A program made the position numbers and the translations under genes. A stretch of DNA of 64,000 bases, taken from assembly GCA_016748015.1 (NCBI GenBank), contig JAAOMT010000213.1, forward strand, positions 176,529 through 240,528. The letters are read 5' to 3'. A model generated the notes under the pieces. That model did no database searches. It was given only the letters and a program-made list of their open reading frames with translations, and was not told the origin of the DNA. The stretch is from Geosiphon pyriformis (lineage: Eukaryota; Glomeromycota; Glomeromycetes; Archaeosporales; Geosiphonaceae). Below, one piece after another: positions 2,691 through 33,061 of this stretch (the stretch's first letter is position 1; the number at the start of each line of letters is the position of its first letter).

Positions 2691-2693
2691 ATA

Positions 2694-3700
2694 ATGGACT
2701 TGGACAACTACTCTGCCTTAATGGAGTTTTTGGGTAAAGGACAATACCCACCAGAATACACTCAACAGCAAAGAGAACATTTGCTTAAACAATCAAATTT
2801 CTATTTGATCTGCCAGAACCAATTATATAAAAAAAACAGAAAAGATCCTAACTGCTCCCAGAGAGTCATCAGATTTGAAGAAAAAAAAATTGTAATATAC
2901 AACATGCATACTAATCCATTAGCTAGATACTTTGGAAAAACAAAAACAATTCAGAAAATTTTAGCTTATTATTATTGGCCTACCTTAAGAAAAGACATTG
3001 CTAAATACATTAAAACCTGTAACATCTGCCAAAGAAAAAGCAAACCCAATCACAAAGAAGATATTTATCCAATTTTTATTGGTTAACTATTTAACAAAAT
3101 TGGTATAGATGTTGTTGGACCTTTAACAATAACTCTTAATAACAACAGATACATTATTACAACTACTAATTATCTTACAAAGTGAGTAGAAACAAGAGCC
3201 ACTCTTAACCAAACAGCAGTCTTAATAGCCAATTTCATTTATGAAGATATTATTTGCCATTATGGCTGTCTCAAAGAACTTTTATCTGATAGAGGAAGAG
3301 CTTTTTTTAGTACACTGGTTGAAGAACTTTGCAGATAAATGAGAATATGTCATAAACTTTCCTTTTCTTATCACTCCCAAACAAATGGCCTAGTAGAATG
3401 TTTCAATAGAACACTATGTAAAACCCTAGCCAAAACCAGTGAAAAAACAAACTTATAGGACAAAGTACTGCTTTTAGCCTTGTTTGCTTATAGAACTGTG
3501 AATTATGACATAATAAGTTATGAATCTTTTTATTTGCTTTATGAACACATGACAATACTACCAATAGAAACTGATATTAAGACAATATTTTTTGAAAAAA
3601 TCATAATAGAAAATTACAAAAACATTTTGCAAAGAAGACTTGGTACCATTTTTGACTCCTTAAGAAAAAGAAAACTTATAAAACACTTTTTTTAAGTGTT
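2694..3700 (+). pseudogene. Integrase, type A copy 1
   Basis: The N-terminal zinc domain has the HHCC pattern (H near NMHTNPLAR, TCNICQ near 3016-3033). The catalytic core has the first Asp in GIDVVG (codon 3108-3110), the second in LSDRG (3288-3290) and the Glu in LVECFNR (3396-3398), giving the D,D(35)E spacing typical of retroviral-type integrases. SQTNG precedes the Glu as usual. Five or so in-frame stops (for example 3085, 3183, 3337, 3457) are TAA, TGA or TAG at expected Gln/Trp positions. Near 3660 a deletion relative to the copy at 29280-29370 shifts the frame into the C-terminal GDLVL segment. Confidence 0.9.
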
Positions 3701-3956
3701 GGTGACTTGGTATTGGAATACTGTTTAGACAGAGACAATGTCTATGGTAATAAATTGTCTAACCGATAGAAAAAACCTTTTATAGTCAACAAAGTTTTGA
3801 ACAATGATTTTTATATTCTTTAAGATCAATCCAGAACAATCTTTAATGATTATCCTGTTCATGATACACAACTCAAGAAATATTATAAATAACCTAATTG
3901 GTTGTCTGTTGTGATAATACTGACTCAAATGATCAACAAAAATCAAGTATAAATAA

Positions 3957-4639
3957 ATGCATTATTCCCAAACAGAGGTATTTTCAATTGACATAAGCAA
4001 TTATTTTTTGGATCAAAACATTCAAAATGCCTTCTATATTCTCCATGAGTATTGGATTAAAAACTATCTAAATACTACTCTGACCATTGGAAAACAAACC
4101 ACCATAATTGATAACAATAGAACATATACTGTTATTAGACCAAAAAAAACTACTATCAGAAGAGAAAAAATTAGTAGCAAAATAAATAAATATCTGTTGA
4201 AAAGTATAACAACAGCTATACCAGCACAATTGGAAAAACACTCCAAGAAATCTTACCTATAGACAAAAATTTGTTATATGAAAGGCAATTAAAACTCTAT
4301 GGTTGTCTTAAAGAAATCATAGAAGATATGAAACTCATAAAAAAAACAACTTCAGAGATACAGACAGAAATTTTGGGCATTATATGATTAGATATCCCAA
4401 GAGTTTTAACTATTGCTAAAAAAATCAAAACTCTAATACAAAGATTTGGTCTCTTGAATACAAAACTCATTTCACTTCAAGTGTTATATACTCTATCTAT
4501 GAAAGACTTTAACAAACTAGTTAGCTTTGAGTTAGATAAAACTCTTCAAATAGATTACACCATAAATAGCTTGATTTCACCAGAGCTCAATCTCTTTAAA
4601 GAAGATGATGTTATGGTTGAAACTTATATTTCTTATTAA
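3957..4639 (+). pseudogene. Post-integrase ORF of unknown function, type A copy 1
   Basis: Downstream of the integrase C-terminal domain lies about 680 nt of further coding sequence, conserved in the copy at 29640-30310. It starts near the segment NYFLDQNIQNAFYILHEYW, continues through a basic stretch (RPKKTTIRREK), and ends inside the 3' LTR with VETYISY (stop 4637-4639). One small deletion near 4215 and several Gln-to-stop changes break it. I see no signal peptide, membrane span or chromodomain, so neither an env-like nor a chromo-integrase tail is supported. It may be the C-terminal part of the polyprotein or a separate ORF. Its conservation across two copies that differ at many bases argues that it was once coding. 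Confidence 0.6.
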
Positions 4640-5326
4640 TTATCACATGTATTAGCCATTGATGTTATATAAATTAGTCATTCTATTTTTAGAAAGTAAT
4701 TATTGACCTAATCAATGATCTGATCAATAACCTAATCATTGACCTGATTATTGATCTGATTATTGATCTAATTGTTGATCTGATTATTGACCACTTTTAA
4801 TAGCTATATAAGTGATGAATTTTTTAGCTGTAGAAAAACATGTAGAAATCAAGGAAATCAAATAAATAAAATAACAAACTTTCATCTCAATCATTTTCTT
4901 ATTGCTAATTTTTCTTTCTCTACTTTCAAGTATTTGCATATCTTGGGATAAAAAATTACTTGTTGGTTATTTCTTACCCTTTTCCTGAAACATGTAATTG
5001 TAGCGTTTGAAGATTATTGAATAAAACGTGACTGAAGAAGTACATCTAATTCCTGATATTAAATTTTAAGAGCACCAACATAAGGCATAGAATTATACCA
5101 ATGTGTGATTATTTGTTAACAGTATGGACTATTTTTTTACCTTCAGATTCTCTGGTTATTTTTTGAAAAGTATAGCAACTGAGATATTTTATGAGACTGA
5201 TCTTGCACATTGAATCCATACTTATTTAATTTGCTCTTTGAAGTTGAATTCCCTTTGTTTTCTTTCATCACCCTACAATCCTGTTCTCCCTTGCTATCTG
5301 TTAGCTTGTTACTCCAACCCATAATA
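4609..5326 (+). repeat. 3' LTR, type A copy 1
   Basis: It begins TGTTATGGTTGAAA and ends about CCCATAATA; intact relatives end CCATAACA. It aligns along its length with LTRs at 8821, 23272, 30280, 38411 and 39218. The U3 carries a 12-bp tandem array (4699-4793), followed 12 bp later by a TATA box (TATATAA, 4805-4811). The purine-rich segment just before the LTR (AAAGAAGATGA) is the likely polypurine tract. The last codons of the post-integrase ORF overlap its first 31 bp. The matching 5' LTR is off the window. Confidence 0.92.
4699..4793 (+). repeat. 12-bp tandem array in U3 of type A LTR (about 8 units)
   Basis: Roughly eight copies of a 12-bp unit of the form TGAYCTGATYAT, drifting by transitions, with TGATCA palindromes inside. 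It ends in TGACCACTTTT just before TATATAA (4805-4811). The same array is present in every type A LTR of the window with different unit numbers: about 6 at 8909-8979, about 7 at 23362-23442, 2 at 30367-30391, about 11 at 38941-39073, and a decayed array near 39746-39850. Position directly upstream of a TATA box suggests a transcriptional enhancer array; that is inference. Confidence 0.85.
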
Positions 5327-5880: not shown

Positions 5881-8082
5881 CATTGGTAAGTATAAGTTGT
5901 TTTTGGTTGGTTTTCAATGAGTTAGATATGGTGATTTTTCAGAATATTAAGAGACTTAAATAGTATTGAGTATTTGGGTTTTAGACATAGTTAGTTCTGA
6001 AATTTTGCTGCCATAATCTAGATTGTTGGGCTGCTGAACTGGAGATTGGTTGGTGCATTATCATTACCAATTTTCAATTCTGGCAAATTTGTGTTATTCT
6101 CAGTCTTTGGTTTTTATTGAAAGATAAGTTCTAAAACTGGATTTAAATTTGTTGGAGTTGATACATTATTTGGGATTGAGACAGTTGATAAATTACTAAT
6201 ATTAAAGTTTGATAGATTGATGACTTATAAATTAGTTGCATTAGTGGAAAGTAATGCAGTTAATAGTAGTATTGTTTAGATAATTGATTACTGGAATAAT
6301 TTGGGATTTGAAATCATTAATCAGAGTTACAATATTGGTTTTTCAATTATTGATTACTTAACTGTTATTAACAATCTATTTTTAGATGTTCTTGTTTACC
6401 ACAATAGTGACAATTATGTATTTCTTGTTGTCATTGTTGATTAGTCAATAATAATGGTGATAGATGTGACTAATTTTGGAATTGATTTGAATTTTCTTGA
6501 TTCTTATAATATTATAGAGGTTGATAAATTGCTTTATTGTTAGCTAAATACTTTTTTTGTTTCTGGTTGATTGAATTACCAAATTGTTTTAGTTAAAAAT
6601 TCAAGTCAGATAATCTGTTTATTACTAGATTTATGACTTGGGGATGGTTGATTTTTAATTCAGCCAATTTAAAATCTTGGGTATTTGTAACTGCATCTTA
6701 GAGTATTTGAAAATATAATAAGCATATATGCTGAAGAATACTACTGCATAAACCACAAATAAACTAGTTCAAAATCTGGGGTGCTGTAAAGTAATTTGTA
6801 TTAATAGCTTGTATTTGGTATAGATTTTTGTAGAAGCATTTTAGATAAGTAGTGACTGTTTTAATGTCTTTTTGCTTAATGGTAGTAAAAGTAGTTGTAA
6901 AGCAATTAATGCTGTTATTGTTATTAAAATATCTCAAAAATTCAACTTTAAATTCATTGAAGTTTTGGGGTTTCTGAATTAAGCTTTGATATCATGAGTT
7001 GACAATATCTTAGAAAAAATATGAAATGGCTTAAAGAGCTCTAGTGTCATCCTAATTATTGGCAATGATAGCTTTAATAATATTATTTAACCAAACTTGA
7101 ATGTTGTCTTCTTTGCCATTAAATTTTTCTAATTTGGTAATTGGTGCATATATCATTAGTATTATAATCAGTTGTTGTTGTAATTGTGGTTGAAATAGTT
7201 GTTGTAATGATGGTTGAGATTGTAGTTACAGCTGTTATTGTTGTGTGACAATTAAGACAACTGGTGGTGAATTAATTATGATTACCAAAAGTAAGTTTTG
7301 AGAAACAATAAGAGCTGGATTTGAATTATTCAGGTTTTACTAAGTTGAAATAATTAGAGTTTGAATTTCTGGGTTTTTTGGAATTGGGTTTTGATAATTA
7401 ACTTTTTGATCTTTGTTTTTCTTTTTTTCTAAGTCAGTTTTTTTCTAAAAATTAGTGGCTCCGAAATCAGGTTGAGGTGATAGTAATTAAAATCCTGATG
7501 ACATTAGTAATTGCAATTTAAATTCTTCAAAGAAATTGTTATAAGTTTCCAATAAATTGGCTTTTTTTTATTGGCTTTAGAACATTATTTTTGTTGATGG
7601 TGTTTTATTAATGATAAAAATACACCTCTTAATAGTATATTGATAATACTTCTAAATATGTGATAATATAATAAATAAATAGATAAGACTATTCTTGGTT
7701 TCTTTTATGTAGGTGGTTATATTTTTCTTGGTGTTTTTACTGATGTTTGTAACTTTTCTTTTTTATTATTTGCAAAGATAATAAAAAATTGCTGTCTGGT
7801 GTGTTTCTCAATTTTTCTGTTGATTTCAGTAGTTATTGGAGCAAACAAATAATTCTGTAAAAGCATAGTATTTTGGAGTAATTTACTATAGAAATTGTTA
7901 AATGCTGCTTTTAGATTTCCTTGGTCTCTTAAATAAGACTTAATTTTTTCATTGACATAAAAGTTAAAAGTTGATTCTGCTGGTCAATGATTACTTGTTA
8001 ATCCTAAATAAGTTTGATAGTATCAGAATAAAGCTTTTGTAAATTCCAAGTAGTTTGTCTTTATTTTTTTTGATTCTGTCAA
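5880..8082 (-). pseudogene. gag remnant, type B, minus strand
   Basis: The reverse complement matches the gag of the element at 13089-15260: the N-terminal region near 8079-7940 parallels the AESEKTGTNHLGF start, a glutamine-rich stretch (CAA runs, seen as TTG on the plus strand) lies at about 7160-7260, and a zinc knuckle CHYCGKQEHLKIDC (C-x2-C-x4-H-x4-C) at about 6371-6412. A Tyr/Gln/Asn-rich tail follows to about 5990. There is no open frame of useful length; stops are frequent. The gag assignment rests on order, the knuckle and parallel composition. Confidence 0.7.
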
Positions 8083-8820
8083 TTCTAAAGGTTTTGAAGT
8101 CTAAAGATTTTAGTTAAGTCTTTTGTATAATAAACAGAGATTTAATTAATGGCTTCTTTTGTGAATTTTTTTTCCAGCATAATGGTCAGTTTATTCTGAC
8201 AATTATGTCTTTTTGGTAAGCTATCTTTAAATTTCTATTCTTATTTTTAGGTCTTTTACCAGACTATTCTTAATATCAAATACTTAGTACTTAATGTCTT
8301 TAATTAATTAATAAACAACAAATAACACAAAACAAAAAAAAATAAAAAAAATAAAAAATAAAAATAAAAAATTAGTATTTTGTTAATAACTATAATCAAA
8401 AACTATTGGTTCAGTGTGGTTAAATATTGAATTTTATCAACATAGAGTGTTGATAGTATAAAGTTGATTAATAGTTCTTAATCAAGTAATGATAACATGA
8501 ATTTAGGTAATAATTGATATTTTATTAATATGTGGTTTAATTCCACTTTAAGTTGTAGAAAACTATTTTTTAAAGAAAGAGATATTGGATAATTAATGGG
8601 TTTTACTAATTTTGTTTGTATTAATTCTGTTTTTAATACTCTTACTATATATATATAACTCTTGTTATATAAAATTTTATATTTTCTTAAATAATATGCC
8701 CTATTTTTTTTAACAATGTGCTTATTGTTGTGCAATATATCATGATTTTCTAATCATGTGCTTATTGTTGAACAGTATGCTATAATTTACTAACAATGTG
8801 CCTATTATTTAGCAGTATAC

Positions 8821-12137: not shown

Positions 12138-13023
12138 TGTTACTTGAAAAAAAAAACAGATATAGAAAATAGTAGACCAATAGGGGAGTAGTAGTTAGCA
12201 TGTAAGCATATTGCTCAGCAATATGGAGCAATGTCAAAAATCATAACACATTGCTTAGCAATATGGAGCAATATTAGAAATCATGGCACATTGCTTAACA
12301 AGATAAAGCGATGTTAAAAAATTAAAGCACATTGCTCAGCAATGTGAGCATTGTTTAAAAAATTATAGCACATCACTCGGGAATGTGAGTGATCTTGTAG
12401 AACATCAATTATGTATATATAGCAATAGCAGTAAAAGAAGAAAAAACAGACCTCTCAGTTTAGATTTGATTTAAGCAATCTTCTCTATTATAAATATTAA
12501 TAAATCATTATTTAATATCTCAAATCTACTCCACATTATCAACTCTTCATGTTAATAGTAATTGATACTTAACCACACTGGAACAATAGCTCTTGATCAT
12601 GGCTATTGATAAGATATTAATGTGCAAATTGCCTTGGCTTATTTTTTTCTTATTTTCTTTATTTTTTTTCTTGTTTTATTTTCTTTGTTGTTTGTTAACT
12701 TGATTAAAAAAATTTACACATGGAGATACTGATGTCAGAATATAGCACTGGTAAAAAACCCAGAAATAAGAGTAGACACTCAAAATTGAGGATATCTTAC
12801 CAGAAGAATTACTGGCCATCACACTGAGAAAAAAATTGATAAAACTGTGGTTTTGGAAAGCTACAGATAAAACTATTAATTGAATTTCTGTCTATTATAC
12901 AAAAAACTCAACCAAAACCTTTAGAAACCACAATTTCAGAAATTACCAACATCATTATATCAATTGAGCACCAAGTTACAGGTTTGTTATTTGATTTGAG
13001 ACCCCAAATAATCATCTGTAACA
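12138..13023 (+). repeat. 5' LTR, type B
   Basis: Starts TGTTACTTGAAAAA, ends ATCATCTGTAACA. Paired with 21356-22233 at high identity. U3 carries five units of a ~40-bp array (12207-12400) ending 12 bp before a TATATATAG box (12413-12421). The second half holds a long T-rich stretch (12640-12690). Confidence 0.93.
12207..12400 (+). repeat. ~40-bp tandem array with inverted repeats in U3 of type B LTR (5 units)
   Basis: Five units of about 40 bp, each built on an inverted repeat of the form CATTGCTCAGCAATG followed by GAGCAATG and an A/T-rich spacer. The copy in the 3' LTR is at 21426-21619, also five units. The minus-strand type B LTR has decayed units at about 8700-8820 and 9499-9530. The array ends just upstream of the TATA box. 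It is unrelated in sequence to the 12-bp array of type A LTRs but sits in the same place. Enhancer role is inferred. Confidence 0.85.
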
Positions 13024-13025
13024 TT

Positions 13026-13043
13026 TGGTGCTCCTTGTAAAGT
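13026..13043 (+). other. Primer-binding site, type B element
   Basis: Starts TGGTGCTCCTTGTAA two bases after the LTR, as expected for a site complementary to a tRNA 3' end (TGG pairs with CCA). The type A element has TAGTGCTCTCTG at 23980, six bases after its LTR, which may be the same primer after a G-to-A change. The tRNA was not identified. Confidence 0.6.
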
Positions 13044-13088
13044 ATAATTTAACAGAAAACCAGCACCAACAAACAACTATTCAAAAAA

Positions 13089-15260
13089 GTGGCAGAATCT
13101 GAAAAAACAGGGACAAACCACTTGGGATTCACAAAATTCTTATTCCAACACTATTGCACCCATCTTAAATTAACAAATAATAGTTGGCCAACAGAATCAG
13201 CTTTCAATTGCTACATCAACAAGAGAATAGTATATCATTTGGGAGGCCAAGGAGATCCAGAATTCGTCTTCAACAATTTTTTCAGTAAATTACTACAAAG
13301 CACCACTCTTCCATAAAACTACTTATTTGCACCCACAAAAATAAACAGAGAAATTGAAAAATACACCAAGCAGAAATTTTCTATCATTTTTGCTGACAAA
13401 AGAAAAGGAAGGTTACAAACACCAGCAGAAATACCAAAACAAATTCAATTACCCACTTGGAAGAAACAAAGATTTGATTCATCTGCTAATCCAGCTTATC
13501 ACTACACACCTGGAAGTACTATTAATATAATAAACACAGCTACAACAAGCATGACAACACTACTGAATAAAATCCTATTTCAAAGTAAACAAAAGAAAGC
13601 AGAATTATTAAGAACATATGGCAATTATTTTGAGGAATTTAAATTGTGATCCCCAATACCATCAGAAATTTGATCACCACTACCACAGCCAGATTTTGGA
13701 GCTGTTAGTTCTTGGGAAATAATTGACTCCAAGGAAGAGAAAAATAGTGATCAAAAAATCAGCAAGTAAAATTCAATTCAACAAAATTCAGAAAATCAAA
13801 CTCCAAATATTCAAACTCTGACAAATCAGAACAATCCAAACTCTGACTCAATTAATCAGCAAAACTTATCTCCAATAATCAAGATTAATTCACCACCCAT
13901 TTCACCAATTACTGAACAACAACAACAACCACAACTGTTATCTCAACAACAATTTCAGCAGTAACTACAACAACAACCACAACAACAAATAGCCTACACT
14001 CCAATCACAAAAATAGAAAAATTTACCAGCAAAGAGAACAATGCCCAAGTATGGCTTAACAACATAGAAAAAGCCATCACAGCCAATGGATAAAATAATA
14101 ACAGAGCCCTTCAAGTAATCCTCTATTTTTTCCAAGATACTGCTGACTTGTGGTATCAAAGTTTAGCTGCCAAACCTCAAACATTCCAGAAATTTAAAAT
14201 TACATTCTTGGGATATTTTAGTAATAATAACAGTATTAATTGCCTAGCCAATGCCTTTATTATAATCAAACAGAGAGAAACTGAAGCAGTTACCACTTAC
14301 TTGAGATGCTTTTACAGGAACTTACACCAAATTCAAGCAATCCAAGCTGACTATTTTATAGTGCCACAGATTCTGAACCAGTTTATCTGTGACCTGCACA
14401 GTAGTCTTTTCCAATGTGTACAATTATTAGATCTAACAACACTCCAAAATGCAGTCACATAGACTAGAGACTTTGAGTCAGTTGAATTAGAGACTAATTA
14501 TGCCCAAGTCATAAACCTAGTCATGAATAGATTATCTAACTTGGATTCCAAATTGAAACAACTTAATAATTCAATTAATCAGAAATTAGAAGGATACTTA
14601 ATTGACAATTGTGTAATTTATCAGCCACCCCAATAACACAATAATTCTGGGAATGTGAATTGCTACCAAAATTAGTCGTGTTTATCATCATCATTCAATC
14701 AGCTATGACAGCAAGAGATGCATATCTGCCACAATTGTGGTAAACAAGGCCATTTGAGAATTGACTGCTGTTTTTATAATAATAACTTATGATTGGGAAA
14801 TCAATATCAAAACCCTGATTGCAGGTTTCAAACTCTGAATCAAAATACAAATCAGGATCAATACTTACCTCATTACATCCAAATGACACAACAGCCAATT
14901 TATCAACCATCAGTATATTAAGCTTCAATTTATCAACTGACAACACCCATAATTTATCAGCCACAGCTGCAACCTATTTATTAACTGCAGTCACAAGTAA
15001 TATATTAGCTGCAACAAATTCAAACACTGCCACAAAACTTATCTCAAAATGGAATTCAAAGGCCAAGAATGATACAACAAAGCTGGAGATTGGTAATAGT
15101 AGTCTATCAACTAATTCCCAGTTCTTTAACTCAACCATCAGGATCACGTCAATGGAGTTTAGGAACTGGGTATACTCCAAACTTGAGTTCCCAGAACTAT
15201 TTAAGTTTTCTGATTAATTCAGAAAACATCTTACTTAACAACCAAAAACCCAATTAAACC
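13089..15260 (+). pseudogene. gag, type B
   Basis: The first ATG (13089) opens a frame starting MAESEKTGTNHLGF, 65 bp after the LTR. With stops at Gln/Trp codons read through, it runs through a Ser/Asn/Gln-rich linker and a glutamine tract (near 13915-13990), to a capsid-like region (about 14000-14460, with NAQVWLNNIEKAI and ADLWYQSLA typical of retrotransposon gag) and a zinc knuckle CHNCGKQGHLRIDC at about 14719-14760 (C-x2-C-x4-H-x4-C). The tail is rich in Gln, Tyr and Asn. At least eight stops are TAA/TAG inside Gln-rich segments, so they are almost certainly former Gln codons. Confidence 0.85.
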
Positions 15261-15289
15261 AAATCACTTACCAGCAACATACCTCCAGC

Positions 15290-15713
15290 CACTGTCACCA
15301 ATGATGAATTACTAGCAGCAATATTCTCATTTGAACTTGAGGAACTGTTATCCACACCTTTGTTTAGTGGAGCCATGCTTGAAGAAAAACCAATTACTAC
15401 CATGTACACAAATGCTAAAATGAATGGCCACTTCATCAAACTGATCTTAAATAATAGATCAGCTGGCAGCATCATCACAAAACAATTCATAGACCAATTA
15501 GGTTACCAAGTTGATTGTGCTGTCAGTGCTAGGATAATAATAGCTGATGAAGCAACCAAAACCCCTATTGACAAGATTGATAATTTCCTATTTGAAGTCA
15601 ATAGTATTATTACACCAATCAAGATTTTGGTGATGGAAGCTATGCAATACCAAGCACTAGTTAGTAATAACTGGCTAGTCAAAACCAATGCCATGCTCAA
15701 CTGGAACATGTAG
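15290..15713 (+). pseudogene. Retropepsin-like protease, type B
   Basis: The open stretch 15360-15713 contains HFIKLILNNRSAGSIITKQF, matching the protease pattern of hydrophobic strand, active-site loop and SIIT. The loop reads NNR where DSG/DNG-type residues are expected, so the catalytic Asp is changed to Asn (one G-to-A step) and the site is dead. Downstream MEAMQYQALVSNNWLVKTNAMLNW corresponds to the conserved ALVGNDWL-type end of gypsy proteases (quoted segment: ALVSNNWLVK). The stop at 15711 is TAG before KLQF. Confidence 0.75.
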
Positions 15714-16107
15714 AAATTACAGTTTAGTCAAGATGGACAACATATAAGAGTACTGGCCATGTGCAACCACTTCAAACCAAATAATACTACATTAGCACCA
15801 CTAATTGAATTCAAGAAAAAAGAAAAAAAACTCATCTAAGAAGCTTACCAAGTTTCATGAACTGACAAAGACCACAACAAGTTACCACTGATACTTTCTT
15901 GAAACAACAATGGGAAAGGAAAGCAAAAAAAAGAACTTACCTGGAATTCTGACCAAGTCTGAGGAACTGACAATGACCAGAAAGAGCTAATAACTTGGGA
16001 GAGGGAAGAAAGCAATAAGAGAAAAAAAAAAGAGAAAAAAGAAAAAACAACACTCACCAATACTTATAACTCTTACATTAATACTACACTACAATGATCC
16101 ACCTATT

Positions 16108-16680
16108 ACTGACCAAAGCTCATATGCATCAATTGTGGCAAAAAATTGTCATTGATGGGTGCATGCTATAGTGACAATGAAAAATACTCCACAGCAACAA
16201 AATTTTACTGTTACTTATGCATCATAGAATGCTTTAGATGACCAAAACAGCCAAAAAAATGGGACAATAAACTGTGTTTCACATGTGAAACTATTTTGCT
16301 TGACAAAAAAATGTGGAATGACATTCCTGGGCATGAAAAAATATGTGATAAAACATGTCAGTATACAATCCTGATCAATAACTGAGTACACAAAAAAACA
16401 CCAATTGACAATGCCTGGAAACAAGCATTGCAACAATTGGAAAAATATCCCCATGACAAACACAAAATCTGGAGAATGACGAGTGCAAAAACAGAAGACA
16501 TAACACTCAGTAAACTACTGGAAATTAAAAACAATCTTCTATCTCTTTCTAAACCCAAATACATCCAAACTTTTGATGTTTTTGGCAATATTGAAGATAA
16601 TTCAGAAGAATTTCATGAACACTACCAGTGATTAGCACCCACTAGAGAAAAACAAAAGCAGCATTTAAAGCAGTTGAATA
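16108..16680 (+). pseudogene. Cys-rich (zinc-binding) domain between protease and dUTPase, type B
   Basis: Read from about 16108: CINCGKK, a Cys in MGACYS, CYLCIIEC, then CFTC, GHEKIC and DKTCQY by 16360, so at least nine Cys and one His over about 85 residues, arranged mainly as CxxC pairs. This is a treble- or double-ribbon pattern. After one stop (16382) it continues as a Lys/Glu-rich helical region (16428-16631) and a second CxxC cluster near 16685-16735 (LCxHC-like, CDFQYCNKC). The block is part of the polyprotein between protease and dUTPase. I recall similar Cys-rich proteins in Rhizophagus predicted proteomes but cannot verify that here. Function unknown. Confidence 0.65.
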
Positions 16681-17009
16681 CTTAATTATGTTAACATTGT
16701 TTAATTTCCTGTGACTTTCAATATTGTAATAAGTGTGATCTTATTTACAATCTACCACCACATATAATCTACACAATTCTAAAAAAAGAGAAACCAATCA
16801 GCAACTGTGCATCAGAATTGGAATCAATTTTCAATTCTAATTCAAACTCTGACAACAACAATGACAAAAACAACAGTTCCAGCTCTGCTCTATATAACAA
16901 TGAAAATAACAACAATTCGGATTCCAATTCAAACTCTGAAATATACATCGCACTTCCTGATCTTACCAAGGAGTAGAAACTTAAATAGTTCAGTAATAAT
17001 GATGAAGGT

Positions 17010-17596
17010 ATCATATCAGAATGTGTGCATAATACTGATACAGAGTTTAATCTGAGATATTCAGAAAACAATGCCATCAAATTGGAACCATACTTATGCA
17101 CCTGCATTGATTTTAAAATAGTATTGGAAATTTCAACAACAACAATAGTTTAATTAGCATCCAGAAATAGTTTAGTGAAAAAAGGAATCAACATCAGAGG
17201 AAGAATAATTGATGCAGGATATATAGTAAATATCATTGCTATGCTACAAAATAACTCAGAAAAGGCCTATATCATAGAGCCAAATGAAAAGATAGCACAG
17301 GCAATATTTCTACTTCTGATTAAAATAGTTCAATTAGTATCAGTAGGAAACAAGGAAGAATTAGAAATTACAGTTAGAGGAATATAAAAATTCAGATCAA
17401 TGAGTAGAATAGACATACCAATTAATATGGCAGAGAAAAAAATTATTAACAAAAGAAAAATTATCTCCACCCATCAATTAATTTCCATTCCACTATATAA
17501 CCAGTATATGGTAACCATAAAGAGAAAAGTAAAAGATCAGATACAGATTTTTGAGGCAAAAGCAACACTTTGTGAATCAGGAAGATTGGATTAGTC
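17010..17596 (+). pseudogene. dUTPase-like domain, type B element
   Basis: dUTPases of the trimeric family have five motifs, all recognisable here in order. Motif 1 near 17018-17065 (TDTEFNLRY; usual form AGFDL, degraded). Motif 2 near 17157-17200 (ASRNSLVKKGINI; usual SRSSLAxKGI). Motif 3 near 17205-17240 (IIDAGYIVNI; catalytic Asp and Tyr kept). Motif 4 near 17281-17315 (NEKIAQAIFL; usual GDRIAQLI). Motif 5 near 17371-17420 (RGI-stop-KFRSMSRID; usual RGxxGFGSTG, Gly residues lost). The enzyme hydrolyses dUTP to dUMP and PPi and would limit uracil in cDNA. A stop in motif 5 and missing glycines mean this copy is inactive. The sequence to 17596 continues as a beta-rich linker towards RT. Confidence 0.8.
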
Positions 17597-17599
17597 AAT

Positions 17600-19250
17600 C
17601 TACACATACCAGCCAAGAATCACAGACACATCAAAATTCTTATTTACAACAACACGGGAAACACTATTAAGATACCAAAAGGAACCACTATTGGATATTT
17701 GACTACTGAAGTTGAAAACCAACTGCCAAACACTATTCCAAACTTTGCACAACTGTGTAGATATGTAGATATCATATTTTAAACAATATACAGACAAAAA
17801 AAATATTATCTGCTCTAATTAAAACAATTAGAACAGATAAACTTGAGAAATCTAAACCCACTACAATATATGCAGCTCAAGATATTACTCAACAACTTTA
17901 ATGACATTTTTGCCAGCAAAAATAAATTTGGCAAAACTGACATAATTTAGCATCAGATCAAAACTGGAGATACAATGCCAATTAAACAAAGAGCATACAG
18001 AGTACCACCAACTAGCCATGAGATCATTTGTCAAGAAATCAATTAGATGCTTGACAACAGGCTAATTTAGCCATTAATGAGCCCATAGTTATCACCAGTA
18101 GTATTAGTCCATAAGAAAAATAGAAAAATCCACTTTTGTATGGATTATTGAAAACTGAATGGAGTAACAAAAGGAGATAGTTACCCAATACCAAAGATCC
18201 AAGAGCTGTTCAACACTTTTGAAGGAAAGAAATGGTTCTTAACTTTAGATTTAGACAGTGGTTACTAGCAAGTAGCCATGAAATCAGAAAACAAAGAGAA
18301 AACAGCTTTTACAATACAAGAAGAAAATTTCGAATTTAAAGTTATACTATTTGGCTTGATGAATGTTCTTACCATATTTCAATGGCTTATGAAAATTATC
18401 TACACAGGACTACTATAGAAATCAGTAGTTATATACTTAGATGACACCAATGTGTTCTCAAAAACCTTTGATAATCATTTGTATCATTTCTAACAAGTAT
18501 TTGAAAAACTAAGAAGAGCTGAATTAAAATTAAATACAACCAAGTGCTTTTTTGAAAAGACTGAACTCAAGTTTTTGGGATATATGGTAAGCAAAAATAG
18601 TATCAAAATGGATCCAGACAAGATTGAAGTAGTCAAGAACTTTTCAGTACCAACCAACTTGACAAAACTAAGAGCATTCTTGGGATTTGCCAGATACTAT
18701 TGCTACTTTATTAAAGATTTTTCTAAACTGGCTTAGCCATTACACCAGCTTCAATTAAAGAACACCAAGTATAAATGGACAGAAAACCAGTAAAAAGCTT
18801 TTGACATATTAAGAAGAAAGCTTATTCAAGCTCTAGTGTTGATGTATCCAGATCACAGCAAACCATTTATTATCACTACAGATATATTAGGCCAAGCATT
18901 GGAAGCAGTACTATTGCAGAGAAAATCAGATGGAAGAGAACATCCAATAGCATATATCAGCCAAAGTTTGAGTCCAGTTGAAAAGAACTATAGAACACTA
19001 GTATTAGAACACTTAGCAATCTATTGGACAGTTATGAAATGAAAAAAATACTTGAGCCAAAAGTTTGATATATATACTGATCATAAAGAATTAACTTTAA
19101 TCCAAAAGCAAAAATTTGGAAATGATTGTCATGCCAGATAGAAAATAGAACTTTTACTATTTAATTATACAGTATATTACAAAAAGAGAAAAGAAAATGG
19201 AAATGCTAATGGTTTGTCATGAATAAGACAAATTTAAAAACATTTCAACC
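17600..19250 (+). pseudogene. Reverse transcriptase and RNase H, type B
   Basis: Recognised by FCMDY-stop-KLNGVT near 18138-18170 (DYRKLN, with CGA changed to TGA), PKIQELFNTFEG, WFLTLDLDSGY (motif A Asp), and VVIYLDDTNVFS near 18427-18460 (catalytic YLDD intact). FLGYMVSKNSI and LRAFLGFARYYCYFIKDFS follow. RNase H starts with the open stretch at 18836-19042: FIITTDILGQALEAVL, AYISQSLSPVEKNY, then YTDHKELTLI and NANGLS. Stops include Q-stop-KAF near 18793, the same Gln position that is a stop in the type A copy at 2210. Upstream 17600-17880 encodes a beta-rich pre-RT linker with IPKGTTIGYL. Confidence 0.9.
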
Positions 19251-19419
19251 CAAAAATACAACAAAAGATGAATATACAAAAATACCAACAATTCCAGCAT
19301 TATATAAATACCCAATTGTTTAAGGAGAAATTATCTTAAAAAAAACAAAACAACATAAAACAACAATCAAAATATTTTATCAATTATCAAAATATATTTT
19401 AACAGAAAAACAAAAAAAA

Positions 19420-20520
19420 TTCAGATTAACCAACCAGAGTAATTACAGAACCAGAAAAAGAAACAATATTGTTCAACATGCACTTAGATTCAACAGCAGG
19501 ATGCTTTCATAAAGAAGCAACCATGAAAAGAACCAGGAATAGATATTATTGGCCATCATTGTATTCAAACATTATCCAATATGTTCAAAATTGTGATGCT
19601 TGTTAAAGAAGAGGTGAAATAAAACCCAGTAAACCATTGAAACCAATCAAAGTAGAACAACCATTTGATTACATTGAAATTGACTTAGTCGGACTATTAA
19701 CAATCACCAGCAGAGACAACAAATATATTGCAGTAACTATAGATTATTTCACTAAATGGCCAGAAACAAAAGCCATTCAAAGAGCAAATGCAAAATCTGT
19801 TGTCAAATTTGTCCATTAAGATTTAATTTGTTGACACAGATGTCCAAAAAAAACTACTATCAAATCAAGAAACTCACTTTGTGAATAGAACATTGACAGA
19901 ATTAAGTTAAAAATTTGGGATAAAAAGATCATTATTATCACTATATTATCCACAAACAAATGGGTTAGTTGAAAAATTCAACAGAATACTGTGTGAAACA
20001 ATAGCCAAGATCAGCCAAGAAAACCAGAACAAATGGGATTTGTTTATACTATTAGTATTATTTGCTTACAGAACAATGAAACAAGACACTATACAAGCAA
20101 CACCATTTGAATTAGTATATAGTAGAACAACAATATTACCAGTTGTGATAAAAGTTAGAACATATTCAACAGAACCAATAACAGAAAAAAATTTTCAAAG
20201 AACATTGTTAAGAAGAACATATGACTTAATGGAAACACTGGAAAACAAATGGCAAAAAACAGCTAACAACATCCAAAAGTTACAAGAGAAACAAAAAGAA
20301 AGACACAATAATCAACTAACAGATAAACCAATCAAATTCAGGATTGGAGACAAAGTACTTTTACATCATACCAAAGTGGAAAAACAATAGAGTGAAAAAT
20401 TTGATCCCAAATAGGACAGACCATTTCACATAGAAAAAATTCTAGGAAATAGAGCTTGCAAATTAAGGTTGAACAACAAAATTTTAACCAAAGCAGCACA
20501 TAGAAATTGACTGAAACTAT
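19420..20520 (+). pseudogene. Integrase, type B
   Basis: The HHCC zinc domain spans about 19476-19606 (H in NMHLD, H in CFHKEA, C in NCDAC). The core has the first Asp in IDLVG (near 19681), second acidic site LSNQETHF (near 19858; Asn where Asp is expected) and Glu in LVEKFNR (near 19970). QTNG precedes the Glu. The C-terminal part (20041-20390) is open, with LFAYRTMKQDT, TPFELVYSR and the GDKVLLHHTK motif common to gypsy integrase tails. A stop after VEKQ is TAG before SEKF. Broken by several stops and one frameshift near 19820-19850. Confidence 0.88.
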
Positions 20521-20639
20521 ATCAAAACATAGCACCAACATCTACCAATAATATTCCACAACTGAGAGCACAAAAAATACTAGTTCAACCAGATGAGATT
20601 CCACAAGATCTGGAACCAATCATAGTTATTGAACCAAAC

Positions 20640-21340
20640 ACATCAAATTAAACAACCAAAAGAGTATATAAAGACACAATATACATAACAAAAGCAACAA
20701 AGAAAAATAGAAATACCAGACTATATTCACACTTTAGCTCAACAGTTGTTTTAAGCTTTAAGTCAACAGCAAGTGAACATGGGAATTATTATCAACAACC
20801 AAACAATTTGTTATCAAAACACCAAACAAAAAGAGAAAAACACATTATACCAGCAACTACAGAAACAGTCAATAAACTGGTCAGATAAAATAGTAAAAAA
20901 AGTAAAGAACACTTTTGGAAAGATAACTGTTATGGTTCCAACAGAAAAACTGGTGAAAAAAAATTGGAACCAATAAATAAATCAATTTCCAATACCATAC
21001 TGCTACTATCAATTGGGACAAAAAGTAGATATTCAAAAGTTATATCTTGACAAATCCAAGAGAATCTTTAATTAAAAGATAATTTGGAATATTGAAGACA
21101 TTATTGGAAAGAAAACAAACTTGACATTACATATCAAGACCATTTATTGACTATACACTATATTTCAAAACTACTCAAAAGTATTGTTACACTCTGACAT
21201 AAAAACAATAACCATTAACCAATGAGGAAGAATGAACAATTCACAAATTGAAGAAATAAAAAATAAAGTGGAACAAATAATACTTGAAAAAAAAGTATTT
21301 GACATAATTTAAAATGAGAATTTTAATGGAGCTTAATATT
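20640..21340 (+). pseudogene. Post-integrase ORF of unknown function, type B
   Basis: About 700 nt of coding-like sequence lies between the integrase tail and the polypurine tract. The clearest open part is 20773-20976. Reading on past TAA/TAG stops at likely Gln codons gives a Lys/Asn/Ile-rich segment with regularly spaced hydrophobics, ending at the polypurine tract (ILEKKVFDII then the stop region near 21310). I see no membrane span or known motif. Type A elements carry a different extra ORF in the same position (3957-4639 and 29640-30310); I cannot align the two. Confidence 0.45.
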
Positions 21341-21355
21341 AAAAGAAGGAGATAA
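21341..21355 (+). other. Polypurine tract, type B
   Basis: AAAAGAAGGAGATAA directly before the 3' LTR TGTTAC. A purine run at this exact place is the plus-strand priming site of LTR retrotransposons. Confidence 0.75.
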
Positions 21356-22233
21356 TGTTACTTGAAAAAAGAAAACAGATATAGAAAATAGTAGACCAAT
21401 AAGGGAGTAGTAGTTAGCACATGAGCACATTGCTTAGCAATATAGAGCAATGTCAGAAATCATGGCACATTGCTCAACAATATGGAGCAATGTTAAAAAT
21501 CATAGCATATTGCTCAGCAAAATAGAGCAATGTTAAAAAATTAAGGCACATTGCTCAGCAATATAAGCATTGTTCAAGAAATCATAGCATATTGTTTGAG
21601 AATGTGAGCAATCTCATAGAACATCAATTATGTATATATAGTGATAGCAGTAGAAGAAAAAAAGACAGACCTCTTATTTTATATTTGATCTAAGCAATTT
21701 TCTTTATCATAAATATCAATAAATCATTATTTAATATCTTAAATCTACTTCACACTATTAATACTTTATGGTAATAATAATTAATACTTAACCACACTGA
21801 AACAATAGCTCTTGATTACAGCTATTGATGGAATACTAATGTGCAAATTGCCTTGGCTTATTTTTTTTTTGTTTTCTTTTTTGTTTTATTTTCTTTGTTG
21901 TTTGTTAACTTGATTAAAAAAATTTACACACAGAAGTACTGATGTTAGGATATAGCACTAGTAAAAGACCCAGGAATAAGAATAGACACTCAGAATTGAG
22001 AATATCTTATCAGGAAGATTACCAGCCATCACACTAAGAAAGAAATTAATGAAACTGCAGTTTCAGAAAGCTACAGATAAAACTATTAATTGAATCTCTG
22101 TTTATTATACAAAGGATTCAACCAAAACCTTTAGAAACCACAATTTCAGAAATTACCAATATTATTATATCAATTAAGCACCAAGTTACGGATTTATTAT
22201 TTGATTTAAGATCCCAAATAATTATTTGTAACA
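21356..22233 (+). repeat. 3' LTR, type B
   Basis: Starts TGTTACTTGAAAAAAG, ends TATTTGTAACA. It pairs with 12138-13023; most differences are transitions (for example GGAGTAG kept, CAGCAATATGG versus TAGCAATATAG). Array 21426-21619 with five ~40-bp units, TATATATAG at 21632-21640. Confidence 0.93.
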
Positions 22234-25480: not shown

Positions 25481-25660
25481 ACAATGTTTTCAACCAAAGA
25501 CCCAATTATGCCAACATCAATTTCTTTAGAGAGGATCTCTTAGTTGAAGCCACTGTTTATTAGTCTTTAAACTGGTAGGCACATCTTCAAAGAGTAAGAG
25601 TGTAAGCCAACCAGAAAAAAAATTTTTTTATGTTTTTAACTTAACTAATAATAATCATAA

Positions 25661-26540
25661 CATGAACAAACTAGCAATCAACACCTCTGAATTAACAAGA
25701 AAGAAGAAAAAGGCCAAGGTTGATTTCATTCTGAACCCAAACAAGACATTCAAATCAACTGTTGATAACAATAAGCCACCAAAGACTAAAGTCTTTAAGA
25801 ATCCTCCAAAATTAGAACCCCCAGAAATTGTACAAAAATCTGGACCCTATTTTGTTGTCAAAAATCTCATGAAAACACCTGTTCACATTACTTTTGGCCA
25901 GTTAATGACCCATCTCTAATTCAGAAAAGATCTTCACAAATCTTTGATTCCCAAAAAAAAGACACCAAAGACCAACAAGCATTCATGTCAAGCTAAACTT
26001 GCTGACAACAGCAATGTTACTTTTCTCATTTGTAAAGCTCAAGTGGCTGATTACTTCATTGATCTGATTCTGAACAGTAGATCATCTGTTAGTATTATTG
26101 CCAAACACTTTTTAGAAACAATTGGCAGAAAAATTGATAAACCATCCACAAAACCAATAACCAATGTACATGGTAACAAAAAAAAAATCTGGACATAGCC
26201 AAAGCTATTCCTGTCCAAATCAATGGCATCAGCATTGAAACTGACATGGAAGTATCTGAAGCAAAAGAATACATCATAATAGTTGGCAATAAATGGCTTA
26301 AAAAAGCAAAAGCCTTACTTAATTATAAACTTTGTGAACTAACCATCAGATGTGATGAAAAACCCATTGTAGTTAAATGCCATTATTGGACAATTCCTTC
26401 AATATTCAAGCAGAACCAAGAAAAAAAACAATCAGATAAATCAGATGATAATAAGAGTAATAAAAAAAAGATCAAGAAAAACAAGAAAAAACTGCTAAAC
26501 TTGCCTATATTATCTTTACCAGCAATAGCAAGCTACTAAA
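25661..26540 (+). pseudogene. Protease and linker, type A copy 2
   Basis: From 25662 a Lys-rich linker (LAINTSELTRKKKKAKVDF) leads into the protease. The active-site loop reads LILNSRSSVSII near 26067-26100, where copy 1 reads LILDS, so the catalytic Asp is Asn here by one G-to-A step. The flap-end segment YIIIVGNKWLKKAKALLNY is at about 26270-26325. A frame slip at an A-run near 26185 and a stop at 25918 (TAA, Gln in copy 1) interrupt it. The segment after 26400 is a Lys/Asp/Asn-rich tether. Confidence 0.75.
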
Positions 26541-26599
26541 CAATGTTAAAGCTGACAAAAAAGAAATCATAATAAATAGCAAGCTGATTTGCTGGTCTT

Positions 26600-26949
26600 A
26601 CTATGATATCCTCAAAAGAACCTTTGATAGAAAACCTGGCAAGAAAGCAAAATACAATTATTGATGGCATGGTTCTTGTGCCAGGTGTTGGTGTAATAAA
26701 CTTTTGTATTTCTCTAGTGATGAATGCAAGTCTTGCCTAATTTATTACAAAGATTGGGAGCCAATTAGTTTGATACTCAAAGAAAAACTAAAAAAAGTAC
26801 AAAAGTTCTTTAAGAGTGAACCACTTAAAATTCAATCACTAGTTGTAAAACAAAGAGAACCTTCTTCTGAAGAAAGAAAAGTGGACATTAAAAATCTGTT
26901 GGCTAGGAATAGTCCAGTTATCTCAAAAGAAGGTGATACTCCTGGATAA
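26600..26949 (+). pseudogene. Cys4 zinc-ribbon-like linker, type A copy 2
   Basis: Two CxxC-type pairs with the same spacing as in copy 1: CARCW near 26680-26694 and CKSC near 26725-26738, followed by LIYYKDWEPISL. In this copy the Trp codon that is a stop in copy 1 is intact, showing the finger is fused to the downstream polyprotein. The region ends with an acidic-basic tether (LKEKLKKVQKFF) leading to RT. Confidence 0.6.
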
Positions 26950-27039
26950 ATTCATGTGATATAACACACCATCATCACAAAAGAAACTTGTTCTATCCAT
27001 TTGAAGCCTTATTAATCCAATCAATGCAATAATGAGTTT

Positions 27040-28300
27040 ATTAAGAAAGAGATAAACCGGATAAAAGATCTTGGATTCATACAAGAAACCAAGAGTAAAT
27101 GGGCTTTCTCAGTTGTAGTGATATCCAAGAAAGATAAAACCTTATACTTCTGTGTTAACTACTGCTAACTAAATGTCATCACTATAAAAAACATATACCC
27201 ACTCCCTAAAATTGATGCAATGCTAAATAAATTCAATAGTACTGCTTTCTTCTTAACTATTGACTTAACTGCTGAATTCTGGCAAGTAGAGATGGATCCA
27301 GAAAGCAGAAAGAAAACTGCCTTCATCACCAAATATGGCACCTATGAATTCACAGTTATGTCTTTTGGTCTCATTAATGCCCTTTCCACTTTTCAATGCC
27401 TAATGGACAAAGTATTTGAATCAGTAAAAGAAAACTTTGTTCTGGTCTACTTAGATAACATAATAGTCTACTCAAAAATCTGGAATGAATACCTTAAACA
27501 TTTGCAGAAGGTTTTTGACTTGCTCAGAAATGCTGGTCTCAAGATTAATCCTATTAAATTTTTTTTTGGATGCTAATCCACCCAGTTTTTCGGCCATCTT
27601 ATTACAAAAGATGAAATCTTCTCTGATATAGCTAAAGTTGAAAAAGTTCAAAATATTAGACAACCAATAAATGTTCCTGAACTATGTTTTTTCCTTGGTT
27701 TGGTTTCTTATTATTGCAAATTTATCAAGAATTTCTCCAAAATCGCCTTTTTTCTTAATCAATTATTCAAAAAAAATGTCAATTATTACTGGAACACTCA
27801 TCAACAAAAAGCTTTTGAAATTTTGAAGGAAAAACTTGTTACTAAACCAATTTTCAAGCAACCTGATCTGAACCAATCTTTTATCCTTCACATTGATACA
27901 TCTGGCTATGGACTTAGTGTTGTTCTTTTACAGAAAGATAAAAATGACAGAAAACATGTCATAGCATATGCTAATAGATTCTTTACACCAGTAAAAAAGA
28001 ACTATTCAGTTACTGAACAAAAATATTTAGCAGTAGTTTGGGCTACTAGTTACTGGGATTAATATCTTTTTGGTGCAAAATTCTTAGTGGTAACAGATCA
28101 TTAAGCCTTGGTTTGGCTGCATAATAAAAAGAAGCTGGAACACAAACAAATAACTTGCTGGATACTTTACTTGAATAAATTCGACTATAATATTCAACAC
28201 TGCAAAGGAGCAAATCATCAAAACATTGACATTTTCTCTAGATCTACTATCCAGTAATAGTACAATCTCTTAAACCAAACCAACTTAATTATTAGTAACT
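27040..28300 (+). pseudogene. Reverse transcriptase and RNase H, type A copy 2
   Basis: RT signatures: FCVNY-C-stop-LN (DYRxLN region, near 27150-27170), FFLTIDLTAEFWQVEMD, FGLINALSTFQ, and VYLDNIIVYSK near 27445-27475. The second catalytic Asp of YLDD is Asn (codon AAC, 27457-27459), so the polymerase is dead. RNase H follows: FILHIDTSGYGLSVVLLQ, YSVTEQKYLAVVWAT, WD-stop-YLFGAKF (same Gln-to-stop as copy 1), VVTDH. Stops at 27574, 28060 and later are TAA/TAG/TGA at Gln/Trp positions. Confidence 0.92.
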
Positions 28301-28319
28301 CCTTCATAAACAAACATGA

Positions 28320-29560
28320 TAATGGACTTGAACAACTACTCTGCCTTAATGGAATTTTTGGGTAAAAGACAATACTTATCAGAATACACTTGACAGCAAA
28401 AAAAACATTTGTGCAAACAATCAAATTTCTATTTGATTCACTAGAACCAGCTATATAAAAGAAATAGAAAAGATTCTGACTGCCTCTAAAGAGTCATCAG
28501 ATTTGAAGAAAGAAAAATTGTAATATACAACATGTACACTGACCCATTAACTAGACACTTTGAAAAAACAAAGACAATTCAGAAAACTTTAGCTCATTAT
28601 TATTGGCCTATCTTGGGAAAGAACATTGCTGAATACATCAAAACCTGTAATATTTGCCAAAGAAAAGACAAACCCAATTACAAAAAAGATATCTATTCAA
28701 TCTCTGTTGGTCAACTATTTGACAGAATTGGTATAGATGTTGTTAGACCTTTAACAACAACTTCTGGTGACAACAGATACATTATTATAGCTATTGACTA
28801 TCTTACAAAGTGGGTAGAAGCAAGAGCCACTTCTAATCAAACAGCAATCTCAATAGCCAATTTCATTTATGAAGATATCATTTGCCATCATGATTGCTTC
28901 AAAGAACTTTTATCTAATAGAGGAAGAGCTTTTTTCAGTATACTGGTTAAAAAACTTTGTAAAAAAATGGGAATACATCATAAATTTTCCTCCTCTTATT
29001 ACTTCCAAACAATGGTCTAATAGAATGTTTCAATAGAACACTATGTGAAACTCTAGCCAAAACAAGTAAAGAAACAAACTTATGAGACAAAATACTGCCT
29101 TCAGCTTTGTTTGTTTATAGAACTGTAAATTATGATATAACAAATTATGAACTTTTTTATTTGTTCTATGAACACATAACAATACTATCAATAGAAACTA
29201 ATATTAAGACAATACCTTTTGAAGAAATCACAATAGGGAATTACAAAGACATTTTGCAAAAAAAACTTGGTACCATTCTTGACTTCTTAATAGAAGCATG
29301 AATAATTGCTTTTAAAAAGATACAACAGTTCCAAAAAAAGCTTAAGAAAAAGAAAATCTATAAAACACTTTCTTTAAGTGTTGGTGACTTGGTATTAAAA
29401 TACCATTTAGACAGAGACAATGTCTATAGTAATAAATCTTCTAGTCAATAAAAAAGACCCTTTATAGTCAACAAAGTTTTGAAGATCAATCTAGAACAAT
29501 CTTCAATAATTGTCCTGTTTATAGTACATAACTCAAGAAATATTATAAACGATCTAATTG
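28320..29560 (+). pseudogene. Integrase, type A copy 2
   Basis: The open part 28532-29020 starts within the HHCC domain (YTDPLTRHFEKTKTIQ, TCNICQRK) and contains GIDVVRPL (first catalytic Asp), AIDYLTKWVEARAT and LSNRGRAFF. The second catalytic Asp is Asn (AAT, 28916-28918; copy 1 has GAT). One base is missing in the A-run of SYYFQTNG near 29010, shifting the frame before the catalytic Glu (LIECFNR, about 29020-29037). The C-terminal GDLVLKYHLDRDN motif is at about 29382-29425, longer than in copy 1, which has a deletion there. Confidence 0.9.
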
Positions 29561-29639
29561 GTTGCCTGTTGTGGTAATACTGACTCAAATAATCAGCAAA
29601 AATCAAGTATAAATAAATGTACCATTTCCAAAACAAAGA

Positions 29640-30310
29640 TATTTTCAATCAACATGAACAACTATTTTCTGGATCAAAACATTCAAAACACCTTTTATAT
29701 TCTTCATGAGTATTGGATCAAAAACTATCCAAATGCTACTCTGATCATTAGAAAATAAACCACCATAACTGATAACAGAAGAATACATATTGTTATTAGA
29801 CCAAAGAAAACTACTACCAGAAAAGAAAGAATTGGTAGCAAAATAGATAAATATCTGTTGGAAAGTATAACAGCAGCTATACTCCCACCTTCTAGCACAA
29901 TTGAAAAAACACTCTAAGAAATCTTATCCATAGACAAAAACTTGTTATATGGAAAGCAATTAGAACTTTATGGTTGTCTTGATAAAATTATAAAGTATAT
30001 GAAACTCATAAAGAAAACAACTTCAAAAATATAGGCAGAAATTTTGGATATTATATGGTTAGATATTTCAAGAGTTTTAACTATTGCTAAAAGAGTCAAA
30101 ACTTTAATACAAAGATTTGGACTCTTAGATACAAAATTCATTTCACTTCAAGTATTATATATTTTATCCACAAAAAACTTCAACAAACTAGTTAGCTTTA
30201 AGTTAAATAAAACTCTTCAAATAGATTACATCATGAATAGCTTGATTTTGCCAAAGCTCAATTTCTTTGGAAAGAATGATATTATGGTTGAAATTTATAC
30301 TTCTTATTAA
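29640..30310 (+). pseudogene. Post-integrase ORF of unknown function, type A copy 2
   Basis: Counterpart of 3957-4639: NYFLDQNIQNTFYILHEYW near 29660-29715, then RPKKTTTRKER-like basic stretch, LLYGKQLELYGCL near 29942-29980, and the open 3' part 30044-30310 with LDISRVLTIAKRVKTLIQRF. It ends in VEIYTSY within the first 31 bp of the 3' LTR, exactly as in copy 1. Here 12 bp (CTCCCACCTTCT-like) absent from copy 1 near 4220 are present. Leu/Ile/Lys-rich, probably helical; no known domain seen. Confidence 0.6.
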
Positions 30311-30921
30311 TTATCACATGTATTAACCACTGATGTCATATAAATTAGCCACTCTATTTTTAGAAAATGATCATTGACCTGATCATTGACCACTTTTGAT
30401 AGCTATATAAGTGATGAATTTCTTAGCTATAGAAAAGCATGTAGAAATCAAGAAAATCAAATAAATAAAATAATAACTTTTATTTTAATTCTTCTCTTAT
30501 TACTAACTTCTTTTTCTTTACCTTCAAGTATCTGAACATTTTGAGATAAAAGATTACTTGTTGGTTATTTCTTACCCTTTTCCTGAAACATATAATTGCA
30601 GTATTTGAAGATTATTGAATAAAACATAACTGAAGAATATATCTGATACCTAATATTGAATTCTAAAAGTGCCAACATAAGGCATAGAATTATACCAGGC
30701 ATGATTATTTGTTGACAGTATGGACTATCTCTCTATCTTCAAATTTCTGGTTATCTTTTGAAAAATATAGTGACTAAGATATTTTATGAGACTAATCTCA
30801 CATATTGAATCCATACTTATTCAATTCACTCATTAAAGTTGAAATCTCTTTGATTATTTCTATCATTCTACAATCCTGTTCTTTCTTGCTATCCATTAGC
30901 TTATTACTCCAATCCATAACA
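30280..30921 (+). repeat. 3' LTR, type A copy 2
   Basis: Begins TATTATGGTTGAAA (first TG changed to TA), ends CAATCCATAACA, followed by the ATAT duplication. Only two 12-bp units remain in the U3 array (30367-30391). TATATAA at 30404-30410. Confidence 0.92.
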
Positions 30922-32221: not shown

Positions 32222-32300
32222 AGCGTGATTATTTCCATTTTTCACATTTACATGATACATTTGATCATAAAAATTGCTATCAACCTCTGACAACATAGCG

Positions 32301-32789: not shown

Positions 32790-33061
32790 CCTATTTTCCC
32801 AAGATACCAATACTAATAGTTTAATTCTTTTACAGGGGATTGTAGCAGAGCTTATTTTGATTTTCTTCTCAAGGAAATTAATCCTCGTAACGTTGAAAGG
32901 AATATTTTTATCAAGTGGATACTAAAACGATATTTAATAATCAAAGAAATCTTTTTGATAAGTACTTGGTCTCAAAAATAAATCACCACTTCTTTCAAAA
33001 GCGATCAGGGTTTTTATATTCCTGAAGATGAGAAGATTTCAGCAGAAATTAATTGAAAATA

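Follow-up and report, generated by a model that had tools for sequence, protein, structure and literature searches.

A decayed retroelement in the genome of Geosiphon pyriformis raises the question of why a transposable element would carry a dUTPase. An initial annotation of the 64-kb stretch of DNA analysed here (the window) had placed a dUTPase domain between the protease and the reverse transcriptase (RT) of a Ty3/gypsy element in a Glomeromycotina host, a group to which G. pyriformis does belong. In a protein search, all of the 120 matches listed, out of 331, are named Geosiphon pyriformis. Is this domain a dUTPase, what would it do in a living element, and where did it come from?

The window element contains a dUTPase homologue

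We found that there is a real dUTPase homologue between a protease piece and the RT of the window element. The read-through translation of 16950-17600 (X at stops) matched the dUTPase family PF00692 significantly (E-value 3.1e-8, 33.9 bits; cut-off 22). The stop-free open reading frame at 17175-17387 also matched when used alone (5.4e-5, 23.4 bits), and in a search of PDB sequences with the window domain, dUTPases topped the matches (best E-value 1e-4). With a profile that included Geosiphon copies, the domain scored 130.4 bits at 17022-17402 on the forward strand, the sole place in the 64-kb window at E <= 1e-3.

The five motifs of trimeric dUTPases can be traced in order in the window copy, as had been proposed. 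Motifs were scored with patterns of our own, built on what we take to be the trimeric dUTPase motif definitions. Motif 3 (IDAGY) and motif 4 (NEKIAQAI) are intact, and the glycine immediately before the IID of motif 3 is lost. Motifs 1, 2 and 5 are missing residues that most of 30 related copies retain. Nearly all of the residue losses in the window motifs are through changes of the C-to-T or G-to-A kind. There are two stops in the domain (17151-17153 and 17385-17387), the second of which breaks motif 5.

The interval originally assigned to the dUTPase (17010..17596) does contain the domain and overshoots it at the 3' end. The dUTPase ends at ~17402-17411, and the remainder of the interval is part of a linker between dUTPase and RT (17412..17794, forward strand). 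A change of reading frame sits in this linker, outside the dUTPase; matches to the gp profile are in two frames (16767-17594 and 17519-17794). We considered a second, degenerate dUTPase-like domain in the linker, based on a weak Pfam match at 17576-17779 (0.011, 15.9 bits; cut-off 22). This candidate was rejected, as profile-profile comparison with hhalign gave probabilities below 1%.

The dUTPase lies in the Pol region of a dead Ty3/gypsy element

The element is a dead copy of 10,096 bp (~10.1 kb) at 12138..22233, with all of its features on the forward strand. It is bounded by a 5' LTR (12138..13023) and a 3' LTR (21356..22233) that are 87.2% identical and have TG...CA ends; a purine-rich stretch directly precedes the 3' LTR. 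Between them are a gag piece (14094..14459; PF03732, 1.4e-6, 28.9 bits, cut-off 24.1), a putative protease piece (15258..15710), a Cys-rich stretch (16113..16382) that matches no Pfam family at E <= 0.1, the broken dUTPase, the linker, a broken RT domain (18107..18586), an RNase H piece (18794..19039; PF17919, 6.1e-24) and integrase pieces (19430..20387). The protease piece gave only matches below the cut-off (PF12384, 0.067; PF09668, 0.09) and was assigned by its position and by the clear protease of a relative, the copy L007 (below). The RT scored 244.3 bits with a profile of 30 Geosiphon RTs plus that of the window; taken singly, its pieces were under the Pfam cut-off. In the integrase, PF17921 matched at 19430-19603 (1.2e-13) and the core was below the cut-off (rve, 16.4 bits; cut-off 32.6). 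That is, the order in Pol is protease, Cys-rich stretch, dUTPase, linker, RT, RNase H and integrase. Ty3/gypsy elements have the order RT, RNase H, integrase. Because RT and RNase H lie 5' of the integrase and the TG...CA LTRs are paired, the element is Ty3/gypsy, in agreement with its initial classification.

The flanks of the element have no exact target-site duplication of 4-5 bp, and no primer-binding site was picked out when the LTR pair was examined. No chromodomain was found in the scanned pieces, which end at 20885. The Cys-rich stretch between protease and dUTPase consists of repeated CxxC pairs, both in the window and in L007 (residues ~245-335), where neither a Pfam family nor a convincing PDB match was found for it.

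The window also contains related sequences. The segments 6307-8084 and 8100-8469, in the opposite orientation and more diverged, are 66-70% alike to the gag side and the LTR of the element. Another element is present in two copies that are 84% alike (3-4718 and 25597-30389). Their RTs (1526-2005 and 27121-27600) scored best against the dUTPase-free group described below, and neither had an accompanying dUTPase in the window when searched with the profile that included Geosiphon copies.

Many copies in the genome have the same arrangement

We searched the 124.7-Mb Geosiphon pyriformis assembly for other copies. All 150 of the scored PF00692 places exceeded the Pfam cut-off (the best 150 of 3181 first-look candidates), and 127 of these 150 had no internal stop, by a count of the printed list. 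In a DNA search with 17010-17590, all 40 of the scored places matched (the best of 2150 candidates); these are the window itself plus 39 further places at 83-85%. There was no overlap by eye between the two lists, so at least ~190 distinct places are named.

We then compared the 30 best-scoring RT loci (150 were scored, of 6000 candidates). Fifteen have a dUTPase match just upstream of the RT on the same strand; the other 15 have no dUTPase within 1.5 kb. Neither outcome that the initial annotation had set as refuting, the lack of a significant dUTPase match or of other copies with the domain at this location, was observed.

One copy, L007, has protease (residues 58-147), dUTPase (501-632) and RT (866-1025) in a single open frame of 1132 residues. 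Its dUTPase matched PF00692 at 8.7e-25 (87.4 bits, profile positions 4-129 of 129) and keeps all five motifs. Thus, the genome has at least one copy with an intact set of motifs within an open protease-dUTPase-RT frame, and the location between protease and RT that had been claimed holds in the open frame of L007, and by position in the window. The dUTPase of a second locus, L004, is 56% identical to that of L007, and the motifs are kept in both.

The integrated copies decay mainly by C-to-T and G-to-A changes

The two LTRs of the window element differ by 108 transitions versus 4 transversions in 877 compared columns. The transitions are 46 C/T and 62 A/G, similar counts, indicating that both strands were hit. 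We also compared 30 copies, taking the commoner base at each site as the starting state. Most changes to a rarer base were C>T or G>A: 71 of 116 found in a single copy, 52 of 59 in two copies, and 129 of 168 in three or more. Decay is therefore dominated by changes of this kind, as the initial annotation had proposed.

We asked what kind of process might cause this damage. Repeat-induced point mutation (RIP) biased to CpA was rejected: there was no preference for a following A at the C/T sites of the LTRs (before A, 19 sites differ and 56 are unchanged; before T, the counts are 12 and 32). The observed/expected ratio of CpG was 0.05 in the element (12138-22233) and 0.74 at the open copy L007. 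It was 1.04 at the host dUTPase locus (L075) and 0.81 in the window at 32001-38000. The split within one genome is sharp, with an element nearly devoid of CpG versus the host dUTPase locus and the 32-38 kb region. Matches over the cut-off to C5-methyltransferases were found at 10 places in the genome. The damage would be consistent with deamination linked to methylation, or with a process like RIP.

The initial annotation had also linked the dUTPase to cytosine deamination in this genome. This link does not hold. The two LTRs of an element are identical at integration, so the differences between them arose after integration, and on both strands. In contrast, a dUTPase removes dUTP while the cDNA is being made, so the element dUTPase could not have prevented this damage.

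A probable role for the dUTPase of living copies in limiting uracil in cDNA

Taken as a whole, we consider it probable that the window contains a dead Ty3/gypsy copy with a Pol dUTPase and that the dUTPase of living copies would limit uracil in the cDNA. In such copies, the element protease might free the dUTPase domain, or the domain might stay in the polyprotein and function within the particle as a homotrimer. Going by the properties of the dUTPase family, it would hydrolyse dUTP, and reverse transcription would then yield uracil-poor cDNA. This cDNA would be less exposed to the uracil-DNA glycosylase of the host. The enzyme would have no effect on the deamination of integrated copies, and in the window copy it is broken.

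Both host enzymes relevant to this proposal were found. With a yeast dUTPase query, at least 150 places were returned (best 45.6 bits), and the list was filled by element copies, as if the host had no dUTPase of its own. That possibility was rejected when a motif pattern found a host gene at C262:402677; it is split by introns, and its exons have eukaryote-type motifs. One place matched a second dUTPase motif pattern in the genome search. The absence of a uracil-DNA glycosylase (UNG), which would explain unrepaired deamination, was likewise considered: there was one PF03167 match barely over the cut-off and no GQDPYH pattern. It was ruled out by four exon-sized matches to the UNG profile TIGR00628, in order, on the contig C271. 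The best of these was 1.8e-14, and none reached the whole-protein cut-off. HPSPLS is in one exon, and GQ and DPYH are in separate frames, as if split by an intron. With a uracil-DNA glycosylase gene in the host genome (in pieces), an element could pay a price for uracil in its cDNA.

Several findings speak against this reading. The host has a dUTPase of its own, so the need for a second is not obvious; half of the 30 best RT loci (15) lack the domain; and few annotated Geosiphon proteins retain all of the motif patterns (below). We also compared changes in the window's family, in a biased sample made up of the 30 sequences that best matched one protein (of 146 scored). In this sample the dUTPase had no excess of silent over replacing changes. 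A test of codon position gave p = 0.3 for the dUTPase and p = 0.069 for the linker. For silent versus replacing changes among variants shared by at least three copies, p was 0.57 for the dUTPase, 0.0054 for the linker and 0.018 for both together. A fold prediction for the protein P0039 had a pLDDT of 48, too low to use.

It is possible, if rather unlikely, that the domain has been retained for something other than hydrolysis of dUTP; it might, for instance, serve as a spacer or a structural part of the polyprotein, or act as a binding module. The lack of codon-level constraint on the dUTPase in the window's family would be consistent with this, as would the low number of full-span annotated Geosiphon proteins in which all five motif patterns survive (10 of 172). 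There is also a precedent in a bovine lentivirus, in which a dUTPase-related gene is needed without activity, according to one report (PMC4261571). However, a set made up mostly of dead copies would be expected to be decayed, and so to give a low number of this kind. In addition, the residues that surround the nucleotide are kept between the diverged lineages of L004 and L007, and in 7 of 12 external proteins (all five motif patterns kept). Hydrolysis of dUTP, with uracil-poor cDNA as the outcome, is the function that we favor for the living copies.

The dUTPase was probably not taken from the host gene and follows the RT

We compared element, host and viral dUTPases in a tree of 44 rows, including 16 viral rows picked from 54 loci. 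The dUTPases of Ty3/gypsy elements formed one clade of 16 rows (support 99/97): 8 Geosiphon rows, including the window, and 8 database proteins (P0151, P0152, P0166-P0170 and P0173). Eukaryote-type dUTPases, including the Geosiphon host gene and one poxviral enzyme, formed a separate clade (100/96). An earlier tree of 41 rows had the same separation from the host gene.

In a tree of 38 RTs, the 15 dUTPase-free Geosiphon RTs were a clade of their own (100/100), and the dUTPase-bearing Geosiphon RTs fell into two clades. The type of dUTPase (L004-like or L007-like) matched the RT clade at every one of the 15 loci. The database protein P0173 grouped with the L004-like set both by its partial RT (96/86) and by its dUTPase (92/82 in the 41-row tree, 84/74 in the 44-row tree). 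Our results show that the dUTPase is a stable component of one element lineage and is inherited along with it, beside a dUTPase-free lineage in the same genome.

It is very improbable that an element recently captured the housekeeping dUTPase of Geosiphon: the genome does have both host and element dUTPases, but introns interrupt the host gene, and in the trees it falls among eukaryote-type enzymes, outside the element clade. Chance insertion of a piece of a dUTPase gene into one element copy is hardly credible, given the same position in 15 of 30 RT loci, the 150 scored PF00692 places and the 40 scored DNA matches.

As far as sequence comparison can tell, the trees would fit a single dUTPase acquisition before the amplification in Geosiphon, with subsequent co-inheritance with the RT. 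Elements beyond the Geosiphon set share the dUTPase, and there too it tracks the RT, so it looks older than that amplification. The independent capture suggested initially thus stands insofar as the Geosiphon host gene is not the source of the domain, and fails insofar as these elements share it with others. It may be, although we would sooner doubt than assert it, that one old acquisition marks a Ty3/gypsy lineage extending beyond Geosiphon, where it has hundreds of copies or more beside an abundant dUTPase-free lineage. If so, the pair of lineages is a natural experiment on the benefit of an element-borne dUTPase, in a host with its own dUTPase and uracil-DNA glycosylase.

Some dUTPases of other long proteins fell outside the element clade in the 44-row tree, whose deep forks do not resolve. 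P0163, a polyprotein of 1937 residues with the order protease, dUTPase, RT, is one of these and possibly represents a separate dUTPase acquisition in the same position. The others are P0204, P0206 and P0207, three related long proteins, each with a strong dUTPase match; the P0204 group was on the element side in the 41-row tree. P0204 is labelled as from a diatom (Chaetoceros sp. GSL56) and has a match to RVT_2 (copia-type RT) slightly below the Pfam cut-off; its dUTPase may thus belong to a Ty1/copia element. We found no report of a dUTPase in such an element in a search of open-licence papers.

Comparison with other dUTPase-bearing elements

The initial annotation had regarded a dUTPase between protease and RT as a different architecture. 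It is already known from Postia placenta, bdelloid rotifers and a planarian. In Postia, PosPlaTy3-5 is described as having a dUTPase between protease and RT, PosPlaTy3-3 and -4 also bear a dUTPase in Pol, and related families have it in other places; the same report cites dUTPase-bearing Gypsy elements of Phanerochaete chrysosporium and Tmt1 of Tuber (PMC2864245). By its description there, PosPlaTy3-5 resembles L007 and the window element, as a fungal Ty3/gypsy element with the dUTPase in Pol between protease and RT. All of these hosts belong to other fungal phyla than Geosiphon. In addition, that report treats the Postia elements among chromodomain-bearing elements; no chromodomain was found in the scanned pieces of the window element (to 20885).

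The Juno, Vesta and TelKA elements of bdelloid rotifers (PMC5408684) and the planarian Burro element (PMC6431247) are also described with a dUTPase between protease and RT. The likeness to the Geosiphon element is by description; these elements have animal hosts and extra ORFs. In Juno, a zinc knuckle is described downstream of the dUTPase; in the Geosiphon element, the Cys-rich stretch is upstream. The comparison with lentiviruses is looser: the likeness is a trimeric-type dUTPase in a retroelement polyprotein, and in our tree the lentiviral enzyme is a single row on a long branch outside the element clade, with an unsure placement.

The eight database proteins of the element clade have the dUTPase before the RT, as in Geosiphon, and a protease is listed in seven of them. 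P0151 and P0152 differ from the Geosiphon elements in having a shorter stretch between protease and dUTPase and no comparable linker after the dUTPase.

In Entomophthora muscae, dUTPase domains are reported to be enriched together with retroelement domains (PMC11105155). In the open-licence literature, which lacks most subscription journals, we found no paper on dUTPase-bearing elements in Geosiphon or other Glomeromycotina. Our results extend the dUTPase-bearing Ty3/gypsy elements to a Glomeromycotina fungus. With dUTPase-bearing and dUTPase-free lineages in one genome, it becomes possible to test within a single host why a dUTPase is carried by some retroelements.
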